Shown here piece after piece: positions 7,712-11,353 of a DNA stretch of 64,000 bases. Source of the stretch: Evansella cellulosilytica DSM 2522 (GTDB lineage Bacteria; Bacillota; Bacilli; Bacillales; Salisediminibacteriaceae); the NCBI RefSeq assembly GCF_000177235.2, contig NC_014829.1, positions 1,426,001-1,490,000 on the forward strand, given 5' to 3'. The notes beneath the pieces were generated by a model. That model was given only the letters and a program-made list of their open reading frames with translations, made no database searches and had not been told where the DNA came from. Position 1 is the stretch's first letter. Each line of letters begins with the position of its first letter. The position numbers and the translations under genes are program-made.

Positions 7712-8206
7712 ATGAAGACAATAATCTTAACAGTCGTAGCCGTATATACTATAATTTTTCTCCTCATTGTTGCATTTATACACTGTCAAAATAAAAGAGA
7801 GCAAGAAGAAAGAAAGATGAATCTGTTTCTTTTGTTCATCGTTTCAGGCATTCTTTCCTTAGCTCCAACCTCCGTAATTGTTATTATTCTATTTGCGATA
7901 CTAGGCTCCGCCAACATTGTAGATATGGTGTTTTCCTTAGATTTAAGCATGAATCAACTGATTAAGGTTACTATTTTTATATTAATCTACTTATTTACAC
8001 TTGATAGTCTCATAGAAAAAGTAGTACACATTATGACAAGGAAAAACGTTGTTTCACACATTCTTGTTATGCTTTTCCGTACATTTGTATTCTTTTTCAT
8101 TGGGATCTTCATTGGTATAAGTCAAATAAATAGCCTTGTTATATCGATAGGAATCTCCTTCATCATCTTGATGCTTGAGGCGATGTACCACTATCGAAAA
8201 GGCTAA
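7712..8206 (+). CDS. Small polytopic membrane protein, possibly YrvL-like
   Basis: 164 residues from ATG 7712, with four hydrophobic stretches: IILTVVAVYTIIFLLIVAFI, LFLLFIVSGILSL..VIVIILFAILG, VTIFILIYLFTLDSLI and an FFFIGIFIGI..LVISIGISFIILM pair. The pattern and the FAILGSxxIxDMVFSL and LEAMYHYR positions resemble YrvL regulatory membrane proteins of bacilli, but the match is weak. A GTG at 7667 would add 15 residues but has no ribosome binding site. The stop codon TAA lies inside the REP string GGCTAATGGGGACGG, so the repeat may have replaced the original end of the gene. Confidence 0.55.
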   Translation: MKTIILTVVAVYTIIFLLIVAFIHCQNKREQEERKMNLFLLFIVSGILSLAPTSVIVIILFAILGSANIVDMVFSLDLSMNQLIKVTIFILIYLFTLDSLIEKVVHIMTRKNVVSHILVMLFRTFVFFFIGIFIGISQINSLVISIGISFIILMLEAMYHYRKG

Positions 8207-8363
8207 TGGGGACGGACCTTGTTTGCCGGATCACCGCTCATGCAATCGCAAACCTATTGACCTAAAAGCCTCGAGACTTATTACATAGATGTTTATATTG
8301 GATGAAAGCGAACCTTTGCATTTTTATAATGGACTTGGCAACTAAGAACCGTCCCCTTTTGCC
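8201..8363 (+). repeat. REP-like inverted pair with 105-bp centre
   Basis: The left arm GGCTAATGGGGACGG begins inside the preceding gene. The right arm AAGAACCGTCCCC ends at 8363. The centre holds nothing recognisable. Confidence 0.7.
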
Positions 8364-8389: not shown

Positions 8390-8416
8390 TGTCACAGAAA
8401 GCTTCTTTACCTCGTC
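8390..8416 (+). promoter_or_regulatory. ECF41-type sigma factor promoter
   Basis: TGTCACA at 8390-8396, then exactly 16 bases, then CGTC at 8413-8416. This equals the consensus reported for ECF41 sigma factors (TGTCACA-n16-CGTC). It lies 33 bases upstream of the first gene of the operon that encodes an ECF41 sigma factor, implying autoregulation. Confidence 0.85.
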
Positions 8417-8449: not shown

Positions 8450-9724
8450 ATGATTAAGAAATGGGACGTTGTCATTGTTGGGGGAGGTCTTGCTGGCTAT
8501 GTTGCTGCAAATTACTTAGGGAGGAAAGGAGTGTCTGTTCTACTATTAGAGAAGTCTTCTCAAGTTGGGGGAAGGGCAAGAACGGTTAAGATCAAACAGA
8601 ATTTTTTTAATATAGGTCCACATGCTTTTTATAGTAAAGGACAGGGAAGAGAGATTCTTGAGGAGTTGAAAGTAAAGCTCGTTGGGAAATCACCAAGTAG
8701 ACGTTGCACTCTTGTAAATAATGATCAGTTTTATGATGCTCCGTTTTCCCCTATCAGTATACTGAATACGAAACTATTAAATTGGCATGAGCGTTTTGAA
8801 TGGATTAATTGCCTGTTAAAAATTAATAGAGATATCCCTATAGAATTAGAGAAAATAAACTTCCAACAATGGGTTGAGCAAACGGCCTCATCTGAAAGTG
8901 TAAGGTCATTACTTTATACTTTAGGCAGGTTGGCCACTTACTGTCACGCACCAAGCGATACAGCTGCAAAAGTGATTGTAGCTCAAATGAAGCTCGCTAT
9001 GAAAGGGACCCTTTATTTAGATGGAGGATGGCAAACGATCATAGATCAACTCCATCAGCAGGCTGTTCTTTTAGGTGTCCAGATACAAACGACAGCAACA
9101 GTCACAGAAATTAATTTCCGAGGGATGCAGGCTGGTTTTCATATTTTGTTGGCAGATGGTAAAGAAATTCAGGGAGAAAATATGATCTACACTGCTGAAC
9201 CTAACAAACTAAATACTTTGCTGAAGCAAGCTCCTACTAAAAAGAATACCTTCTATGATCGTGTTATGCCTGTAACGGCAGCAACGTTAGATGTTGCTCT
9301 AACGAATCTCCCTCATCCTAAACAGATATTTTCCATGGGAATAGAGGATGCTCTTTACTTCTCAGTCCATTCCGCCTCAGCTAGGCTTTCTGATCAAGGT
9401 AATCATATCATTCACGTTTTAAAATATTTATCTCCTGATGTGAATATAAATAGCAAAGAGATTAAAAGTGAGCTAGAAAGTTTTTTAGATAAAATTCAGC
9501 CTGGTTGGCAGGAATATAAGGTTAATAGCCGTTTCTTACCGCAGCTCATTGTAAATCAGCGTTTGCCAAAGATAGGAGATGAAAAGAAGCTAGAATCCAC
9601 TGGTATACCTGGATTGTTCCTTGCAGGAGATTGGGCTTCCGCTGATTGGATCTTATCAGAAGGTGCAATTAGAAGTGGGAAAAGAGCAGCAATGGAAATC
9701 GTTCAAAGGAAAGGGAGGAGGTAA
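8450..9724 (+). CDS. FAD-dependent amine oxidase/phytoene desaturase-like oxidoreductase
   Basis: 424 residues. The N-terminal dinucleotide-binding loop VVIVGGGLAGYVAANYLGRKG and the EKSSQVGGRARTV motif are typical of the flavin amine oxidase/phytoene desaturase superfamily. The C-terminal GIPGLFLAGDWASADWILSEGAIRSGKRAA is the FAD-contacting end. The substrate is unknown. ATG 8450 is chosen for AAGGAGG 9 bases upstream; a frame start at 8420 would sit almost at the transcription start. It is first in a tight operon, 1 base before the sigma factor gene. ECF41 sigma factors are typically encoded beside oxidoreductases or carboxymuconolactone decarboxylases, and this enzyme is probably the sigma factor's target. 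Confidence 0.85.
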   Translation: MIKKWDVVIVGGGLAGYVAANYLGRKGVSVLLLEKSSQVGGRARTVKIKQNFFNIGPHAFYSKGQGREILEELKVKLVGKSPSRRCTLVNNDQFYDAPFSPISILNTKLLNWHERFEWINCLLKINRDIPIELEKINFQQWVEQTASSESVRSLLYTLGRLATYCHAPSDTAAKVIVAQMKLAMKGTLYLDGGWQTIIDQLHQQAVLLGVQIQTTATVTEINFRGMQAGFHILLADGKEIQGENMIYTAEPNKLNTLLKQAPTKKNTFYDRVMPVTAATLDVALTNLPHPKQIFSMGIEDALYFSVHSASARLSDQGNHIIHVLKYLSPDVNINSKEIKSELESFLDKIQPGWQEYKVNSRFLPQLIVNQRLPKIGDEKKLESTGIPGLFLAGDWASADWILSEGAIRSGKRAAMEIVQRKGRR

Positions 9725-9725
9725 T

Positions 9726-10613
9726 ATGAAATTTAGTAATGAAGAATACAAAAAATTGCAGCCATTGCTATTTTCTATAGGTTATCGACTTCTAGGCTCC
9801 GTGAAAGATGCAGAAGATGCCGTTCAAGAAGTTTTTTTACGTGGGTATGAAATGGACGGGGATGGTGTTGAAAACAAAAAAGCTTATCTTTGTAAGATGA
9901 TGACAAATCGCTGTCTCGATATTATAAAATCAGCGCAATATAAACGGGAACAATACATTGGTCCATGGTTGCCAGAACCACTCGTAACAGGGGAAGGAGG
10001 AGATATGGATCCAGCAGAAATGCTCATTGAAAAAGAAGGATTGAGTATTAGTTATCTACGAATGATGGAAAACTTAGTGCCTCATGAACGGGCAGTTCTT
10101 TTGTTAAGAGAGGCGTTTCGTTTCTCTTATGCGGAAATTGCTAGTTTTGTAGATAAGCGAGAAGATTATTGCAGGCAGTTATATAGACGCGCGAAAAAAA
10201 AGCTTTCTGCAGTAGAAAAAGAAAGTTTAGATTTTGAGCGGAATAAAACAATGGTCCAACGTTTCATTTCGGCCTTTCAATCAGAAAATATTGAGGAGCT
10301 ATTGGGACTTCTTTCTGAGGAAGTAACGCTTTACTCAGATGGTGGTGGGAAAGTGAAGGCAGCTGTGCGCCCAATTATATCTCGAAACCGTGTGTTATCT
10401 TTCATAAAGGGAGTGATGAATCAAACAACAGAAAAAGTATCGGTATTCATTAGAGAAGTGAATTATCAGCCTGCTATTGTATTTTTTTTAAACGGTAAGT
10501 TGCATAGTGTTGTTAGTTTTTATATATGCAAGGAAACGATTAAGGAAATATATTTAATTATGAACCCAGACAAGCTGCCATTGAAAAAATTTATGTTGGA
10601 AGGAGGTTTCTAA
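9726..10613 (+). CDS. ECF41 family RNA polymerase sigma factor with fused SnoaL-like domain (SigJ type)
   Basis: 295 residues. The sigma2 region is LLFSIGYRLLGSVKDAEDAVQEVFL, and sigma4 includes LVPHERAVLLLREAFRFSYAEIASF. It carries all three hallmark motifs of group ECF41: the linker WLPEP (GPWLPEPLV), DGGGK in the C-terminal SnoaL-like domain and NPDKL at the end. In this group the C-terminal domain acts in place of an anti-sigma factor. AAAGGGAGGAGG precedes ATG 9726. A longer in-frame start at 9621 would overlap the oxidoreductase and is rejected. It likely activates the promoter at 8390-8416. The inducing signal is unknown. Confidence 0.92.
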   Translation: MKFSNEEYKKLQPLLFSIGYRLLGSVKDAEDAVQEVFLRGYEMDGDGVENKKAYLCKMMTNRCLDIIKSAQYKREQYIGPWLPEPLVTGEGGDMDPAEMLIEKEGLSISYLRMMENLVPHERAVLLLREAFRFSYAEIASFVDKREDYCRQLYRRAKKKLSAVEKESLDFERNKTMVQRFISAFQSENIEELLGLLSEEVTLYSDGGGKVKAAVRPIISRNRVLSFIKGVMNQTTEKVSVFIREVNYQPAIVFFLNGKLHSVVSFYICKETIKEIYLIMNPDKLPLKKFMLEGGF

Positions 10614-10615
10614 CA

Positions 10616-11176
10616 ATGAACTATTTTTTTGAAACTGAAAAAGAGAATGAACACGTATCTTTATCTGATTTGCATGCAGAGAAACCAATCTTATTAGTGT
10701 TATTGAGGCATACTGGTTGACCAATTTGTAGAGATTTTCTCGCGCAGTTGCGTGAGCATAAAGCGGATGTTCAGAATATGGGAGTCGACATCGTTGCTGT
10801 TATACCTGCGGGTTCGCAGCACATTAGAGACTTTCTACATGTGTTTGGCCCTTACCCATTTCAAATTTTTGGAGATCCAAATCGTCATTCTTATAAGGGA
10901 CTTCGTCTTAAACGAGTTTCTATAGGTAAATCGACGAAACTCATATCGAATTATCTCTTTTCAGGGAGGTTTAGGGAGATATTCCCAAAGGAAAAGGAAC
11001 AAATGAAGATTGTTAGGCAAGCGATGATGAAACAAGACGTGTACCAGCTAGGGGGCACGTGGTTATTGGACACAACAGGTGAGGTGCTTTGGGAGCATGT
11101 CGATTCAGATCCTTCAGATCATGCTTCTATATCGATGGTTTTAACTAAGTTAAGTGAATGTTTAAAACTGGAATAG
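10616..11176 (+). CDS. Peroxiredoxin-like (AhpC/TSA_2) protein with in-frame UGA at the redox cysteine: candidate selenoprotein
   Basis: Read from ATG 10616 (AGGAGG 10 bases upstream) the frame is open for 34 codons, MNYFFETEKENEHVSL ... ILLVLLRHTG, then UGA at 10718-10720. It continues PICRDFLAQLREHKAD to a normal end at 11176, 186 codons in all. Thioredoxin-fold peroxiredoxin-like relatives have RHxGCxxCR here, so UGA replaces the first cysteine of CxxC, giving UxxC, a classic selenocysteine motif. A 7-bp hairpin follows 18 bases after the UGA. Sequence on both sides is well conserved in style, without other lesions. Alternatives: a nonsense mutation of TGC/TGT leaving a pseudogene, or reinitiation at TTG 10748. 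It is third in the ECF41 operon, suggesting a redox role. Confidence 0.7.
10739..10756 (+). promoter_or_regulatory. Bacterial SECIS-like hairpin
   Basis: CUCGCGC (10739-10745) pairs with GCGUGAG (10750-10756), 7 bp with one G-U, around the loop AGUU. The loop begins 25 bases after the UGA and has G in its second position. This agrees with the known bacterial SECIS pattern (loop 16-37 bases from UGA, G among the first two loop bases). The stretch also codes for conserved LAQLRE, so chance pairing cannot be excluded. Confidence 0.55.
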
Positions 11177-11181
11177 AGGAT

Positions 11182-11353
11182 GATGGGGACGGTTCTTGTT
11201 TGCCGAAAACCAACTCCTACAGAAACTTAAACATATAACCGTTAGCGTACGTAACGTTAACGGTCTTTTAATTCTATAGATTGTTACCTTAAGTTTGTGT
11301 TTTATATACAAGAAATTGGCAAACAAGAACCGTCCCTTCTAGCCCTTTTAGCC
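11182..11353 (+). repeat. REP-like inverted pair enclosing a terminator
   Basis: Left arm GATGGGGACGG then TTCTTGTTTGCC, right arm GGCAAACAAGAACCGTCCC at 11318. The pair starts 6 bases after the operon's last stop codon. Confidence 0.75.
11238..11272 (+). terminator. Intrinsic terminator of the ECF41 operon
   Basis: ACCGTTAGCGT pairs with ACGTTAACGGT around a short loop and is followed by CTTTTAATTCT. Confidence 0.7.

Follow-up and report, generated by a model that had tools for sequence, protein, structure and literature searches.

A putative SelL-like selenoprotein gene in a predicted ECF41 operon of Evansella cellulosilytica

The window considered in this study, a stretch of 64,000 nucleotides of the Evansella cellulosilytica DSM 2522 genome (1426001-1490000 of its one contig of 4,681,672 bases), carries a group of three genes in which a sigma factor of the ECF41 type is followed by a gene with an in-frame TGA codon. 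The genes and the elements that accompany them are as follows (positions are those of the window):

8390..8416, forward strand: ECF41-type promoter, exact match to the consensus TGTCACA-N16-CGTC
8450..9724, forward strand: flavoenzyme of the FAD-dependent amine oxidase type (PF01593), encoded first in the operon, from Pfam and homologs
9726..10613, forward strand: ECF41 sigma factor (TIGR02957, 350.1 bits against a cut-off of 323.25), extended at the C-terminus and bearing the linker motif WLPEP
10616..11176, forward strand: putative SelL-related/PRXL2-like selenoprotein gene, 186 residues, predicted Sec35 in RHTGUPICR, from frame, profile matches and orthologs
10718..10720, forward strand: TGA codon 35, taken as selenocysteine
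10739-10745/10750-10756, loop AGTT at 10746-10749, forward strand: bacterial SECIS-like hairpin, from covariation and loop conservation
11238..11264, forward strand: terminator-like hairpin 3' of the operon, a pattern match only and at chance level (3 sites versus 2.3 in shuffles)

The operon is flanked at 8197-8363 and 11177-11348 by inverted repeats of about 150-170 nt that are MITE-like or REP-like and have ends near GGGACGGTTCTTGTTTGCC. Sites of this type occur 25 times in the window at up to three mismatches (0 in shuffles) and 107 times in the genome at up to one mismatch; among the approximately 100 matches listed, most lie at 1.12-1.48 and 4.13-4.35 Mb.

The frame of the third gene, described in an earlier note on this DNA as intact save for one UGA, is indeed open from 10616 to the TAG stop at 11174-11176, and TGA codon 35 is its sole internal stop. 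Its ATG lies 9 nt 3' of a GGAGG sequence and 2 nt 3' of the ecf41 stop codon. Standard gene calling cuts the gene at the UGA and yields only a 142-residue piece starting at TTG, a case that the present analysis settles. The encoded protein matches PF13911 (AhpC-TSA_2) with 53.2 bits, over the gathering cut-off of 27, and it is likewise matched by the Pfam families AhpC-TSA (PF00578) and Redoxin. The best curated profile is NF040769, SelL-related redox protein, which covers residues 9-177 with 114.8 bits; since this is below the cut-off of 120, we describe the protein as SelL-like and do not assign it to NF040769. The closest solved sequence is a prostamide/prostaglandin F synthase (PDB 9us9, E 6.1e-10, profile positions 11-180), a likeness from sequence alone that does not imply a common reaction. 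This family is akin to PRXL2 and fish SelU. PF00578 and PF13911 agree with the initial description as peroxiredoxin-like; the nearest curated profile is SelL-related, and the nearest solved structure is that of a prostamide/prostaglandin F synthase and not of a classical peroxiredoxin.

The TGA codon is conserved at every taxonomic depth up to the order. Among the nine genomes of the genus, three other full orthologs (72, 55 and 56% identity) have one TGA each, and the 35 genomes of the family hold 20 full-length orthologs, counting that of the window, and every one of them has a single TGA, down to 34% identity. Six remote rows under 1e-3 were excluded as orthologs; three of them have one TGA (L023-L025) and three no stop (L050-L052). 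In the 397 genomes of the order, 74 profile matches were obtained at 1e-10, and 69 of these are full length with E values of 8.2e-56 or better: an in-frame TGA is listed in 69/69, and 14 of them list an additional stop. The position of the codon was read directly in 43 order genomes, 34 of which are among the 69, and in all 43 the TGA is the U of RHxGUPxC. The remaining five matches are partial or remote and were left out of the count: G206 has a TGA and a TAG, G311 covers just the C-terminal part and contains a TAA, one TGA each is found in G051 and G065, and G377 has no stop. In the comparison of homologs proposed in the earlier note, all full-length relatives found in family and order list a TGA; for this peroxiredoxin-like selenoprotein, no Cys form was found among the 69 full-length matches in the order's 397 genomes. 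A Cys at the Sec site is present in two remote homologs from the phylum, L097 (RYASCPLC) and L098 (RYYGCSLC), both of them below the NF040769 cut-off and the latter without the hairpin. The statement that relatives have a Cys at this codon is therefore correct for these two remote proteins but not for the near relatives, which carry TGA. Beyond the TGA, dN/dS is about 0.10, 0.25 and 0.18 in three pairs, with dS near saturation in two, values that indicate purifying selection downstream of the UGA.

A second UGA-containing Prx-like family (RxTFUPNC/SR, one member with UxxS) was observed in the genus relatives G004, G006 and G008, with a predicted hairpin 3' of the UGA (L023 at 1555 and L024 at 1555 on the forward strand, L025 on the reverse strand).

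A search of the complete genome for the Sec-decoding machinery, as had been suggested, identified all four components: selB (348.7 bits, cut-off 242.25), an adjoining tRNA-Sec gene, and selA and selD at most 10 kb from selB, the last two named by reading of their sequences. Moreover, selD itself (L017 13416-14297 and upstream, reverse strand) has an in-frame TGA in SSKAGUGCK, and standard calling therefore gives a short, TTG-started product; this TGA is an internal example of Sec use in the genome. Formate dehydrogenase was considered as a further selenoprotein and rejected, as the two FdhA-like matches of the genome have no internal stop. The tRNA-Sec gene is adjoined by a tyrosine-recombinase-like gene (L017 7937-8911), and conjugation-type genes are found farther off, both being named by sequence reading; the arrangement would fit the integration of a mobile element at the tRNA-Sec gene. 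The idea that Sec use is rare in this group did not stand: a selB above the cut-off is present in 179 of the order's 397 genomes. For the genomes with a full-length match the figure is 69/69 (hypergeometric 1.8e-28, uncorrected for relatedness); since the genomes are related, the TGA and selB counts are not independent events.

In bacteria, a SECIS element is a hairpin shortly 3' of the UGA with a G within the first two loop positions. The hairpin CTCGCGC-AGTT-GCGTGAG has a 7-bp stem at a distance of 18 nt from the TGA and a loop at 25 nt, exactly as first reported, and with the position of its AGTT loop and its covarying stem it agrees with the general rules for such elements, by which it was judged here. 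The corresponding pattern CTNNCGCAGTTGCGNNAG has a single occurrence in the 4.68 Mb genome, and the reversed-pattern control has none. The proposed check for conservation among relatives was carried out, and the hairpin is kept with covariation: in an alignment of 19 rows, 98.5% of the hairpin cells are paired, and the covariation score, which depends on few columns and is compared with shuffles in a test weakened by the kinship of the genomes, was matched by 0 of 500 shuffles and lies above all six slid controls. RNAalifold recovers the identical seven pairs unaided. Two of the seven pairs vary on both sides and three are invariant; 13 of 500 shuffles attained the count of pairs changing on both sides, as did the +3 slid control, and 19 of 500 attained that of further pair types. 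A metagenome-assembled Bacillus sp. (L018) likewise has the TGA together with the hairpin CTGACGC-AGTT-GCGTGAG. Among 44 distinct genes (43 from the order and L093 from outside it), the AGTT loop is present in 44 and the complete set of seven pairs in 42; this set includes L048 (UPICQ), which has the TGA and is absent from the alignments A1 and A2 because of their motif filter. Moreover, the CAG-TTG codons that flank the loop are fixed in 44/44, whereas elsewhere in these genes TTG makes up 12.3% of the Leu codons and CAG 55.2% of the Gln codons, and swaps of GAG to AAG (Lys) or CAG (Gln) change the residue yet preserve the stem. These patterns indicate that the hairpin is under selection at the RNA level.

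The sigma factor was identified by TIGR02957, which we take to be equivalent to ECF41. The promoter at 8390-8416 ends 33 nt 5' of the flavoenzyme ATG at 8450 and is the one exact site in the 64-kb window (0.018 expected by base composition); with up to two mismatches there are 11 sites, a chance number (46 of 100 shuffles). Homologs of the flavoenzyme were found in L053, L054 (51%), L089 (51%) and L090 (38%). Promoter, flavoenzyme and ecf41 are present in five of the nine genus genomes, and the promoter is kept in 5/5 genomes of the genus that have this ECF41: in G003, G005, G007 and G002, TGTCAC-N17-CGTC precedes the flavoenzyme gene. In all five units, the promoter ends 32-34 nt 5' of the homologous start, which was set at WDVV in four and at YDVA in G002. 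The selenoprotein gene is third in three of the five, i.e. in the window's genome (G000), G003 and G005, which share the order flavoenzyme, ecf41, selenoprotein, each behind an ECF41 promoter. The genomes G007 and G002 have promoter, flavoenzyme and ecf41, and a genome search finds no selenoprotein match in them. In G008, the source of the closest relative of the window's protein (72%), there is no ECF41 in the 12 kb examined and no match in the genome at 1e-40. Beyond the genus, the association is lost from view: ECF41 and the flavoenzyme neighbour 3 of the 20 family orthologs and none of 30 order loci, seven of these loci being from genomes among the 20; the flanks compared measured about 1.5 kb in both sets, and less where some contigs end. 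A general link of this selenoprotein family to ECF41 was thus rejected; the link to ECF41 drawn in the earlier note is real, but its scope is narrow. The tree unites the four genus proteins in a single clade (long stem of 1.35 changes per column, support 100/100) in which G000 is sister to G008 (support 99/97). By this topology, a single gain of the ECF41 link followed by a loss in G008 would be as simple as two gains.

How, then, is the TGA at codon 35 to be understood? It could be a genuine stop in a decaying gene, and a lone in-frame stop does resemble a fresh nonsense mutation. A pseudogene is however hardly conceivable for a codon that is TGA in 20/20 family and 69/69 order full-length relatives, with purifying selection acting beyond it and selB in 69/69 of the genomes; this reading was rejected on TGA conservation and purifying selection. 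Alternatively, readthrough of the UGA might insert a different amino acid, e.g. Trp by a near-cognate tRNA, the hairpin being a readthrough signal or a consequence of constraint on the protein. The hairpin overlies conserved residues, L42, Q44 and L45, which are invariant in alignment A1, and part of its conservation is therefore driven by the protein. Constraint on the protein does not account for the synonymous constraint on CAG-TTG or for the residue changes (AAG or CAG for GAG) that retain pairing, and the complete Sec machinery, the UxxC position and the Cys in two remote homologs point away from another residue. Readthrough of this kind is thus very improbable, and the suppressor reading was rejected on TGA conservation, hairpin covariation, the CAG-TTG constraint and purifying selection. 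The TGA at codon 35 is almost certainly read as selenocysteine, as had been claimed, given the machinery, the TGA in all full-length relatives and the covarying hairpin. Taken together, TGA conservation, co-occurrence with selB, the hairpin and the fixation of CAG-TTG argue for a UxxC peroxiredoxin-like (SelL-related, PRXL2-like) selenoprotein.

A genuine selenoprotein might still have its own promoter and be a neighbour of ECF41 by accident: apart from the window's own, the family has 19 orthologs, and 17 of them, the closest one (G008) included, are without ECF41 in the flanks examined. Set against this are the gap of 2 nt to ecf41 on a common strand and the three-gene order in G000, G003 and G005, each time preceded by an ECF41 promoter. 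We therefore consider an incidental neighbourhood unlikely. Most likely, ECF41 transcribes the three-gene unit from 8390-8416, presumably as one transcript.

We are highly confident of the explanation as a whole, for which sequence comparison is the basis: a thioredoxin-fold oxidoreductase with selenocysteine at position 35 would be made by means of SelB and the hairpin from a three-gene unit transcribed by ECF41. SelB and Sec-tRNA-Sec would decode UGA 35, since the hairpin 18 nt downstream would serve as the SECIS element, and the product would be a protein of 186 residues with selenocysteine in a UxxC motif. In this lineage of the genus, the selenoprotein gene has its place as the third gene, after those for the flavoenzyme and the ECF41 sigma factor. 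If ECF41 transcribes all three genes from the promoter at 8390-8416, the synthesis of the selenoprotein would thus be coupled to the signal that activates ECF41. The UxxC motif and the nearest solved relative, prostamide/prostaglandin F synthase (6.1e-10), suggest that the predicted role is to reduce a peroxide or disulfide through a selenol; by analogy with this synthase, the substrate may perhaps be a lipid peroxide. It is tempting to speculate, although we would put somewhat less than even trust in it, that ECF41, with both a flavoenzyme and an obligate selenoprotein under its control, joins selenium supply to a redox response in one inducible unit, which might serve to repair lipids or isoprenoids that have been peroxidised. 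If this were true, the entry of the gene into the operon would have brought a change of function, and the long stem of the genus clade would be its trace. ECF41 would gain a well-defined redox output, and the genus offers natural comparisons, with three ECF41 units that include the selenoprotein, two that do not, and one selenoprotein without ECF41.

The selenoprotein itself is of a known kind, and its regulatory setting is lineage-specific and, as far as our literature searches reach, undescribed. These searches, judged by titles and the opening of abstracts and with most subscription journals outside their scope, found nothing on this selenoprotein gene, no paper joining ECF41 or an ECF sigma factor to a selenoprotein, and no paper with the phrase 'SelL-related redox protein'. 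At 1e-20, NF040769 matches 6 of 398 phylum genomes, the window's own included, with a TGA in four and none in two. The matches over the cut-off in the 398 genomes (L093 and L094) resemble the window's protein in having TGA at this site (RHLGULLC and RHLGUMLG), whereas the proteins of the window's genus form a separate, long-stemmed clade. In both of these remote genomes (L093, reverse strand; L094, forward strand), two UGA-containing Prx-like genes are adjacent, one with SSGUASCR and the other with RHLGULLC or RHLGUMLG, and the RHLGULLC gene of L093 carries the identical CGCAGTTGCG hairpin core.

Prx-like UxxC selenoproteins are already on record in PMC2398784, PMC1794560, PMC9312934 and PMC13188914, and the window's protein is similar to the Prx-like thiol:disulfide oxidoreductase selenoproteins (PF00578, UxxC/UxxU) in the tables of PMC2398784, PMC9312934 and PMC13188914. 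The PF13911/cd02970 selenoprotein of the published tables has UxxS, the window's protein UxxC. The main text of PMC13188914 contains seven NF0407 entries, none of which is NF040769, and the 2006 survey PMC1794560 tallies three selenoproteins of three families for the Bacillales. As for the regulator, the main text of PMC3426412, in which words starting with 'selen' do not occur, gives TGTCACA-n16-CGTC as the target promoter consensus of ECF41, calls the inducing signal unknown and presents the neighbouring genes as ECF41 targets, as tested on carboxymuconolactone decarboxylase genes in two species. Compared with the ECF41 operons in that text, the one in the window is similar in having an oxidoreductase gene followed by the sigma factor gene, the WLPEP motif and the promoter consensus; it differs from them by the addition of a third gene, that of the putative selenoprotein.
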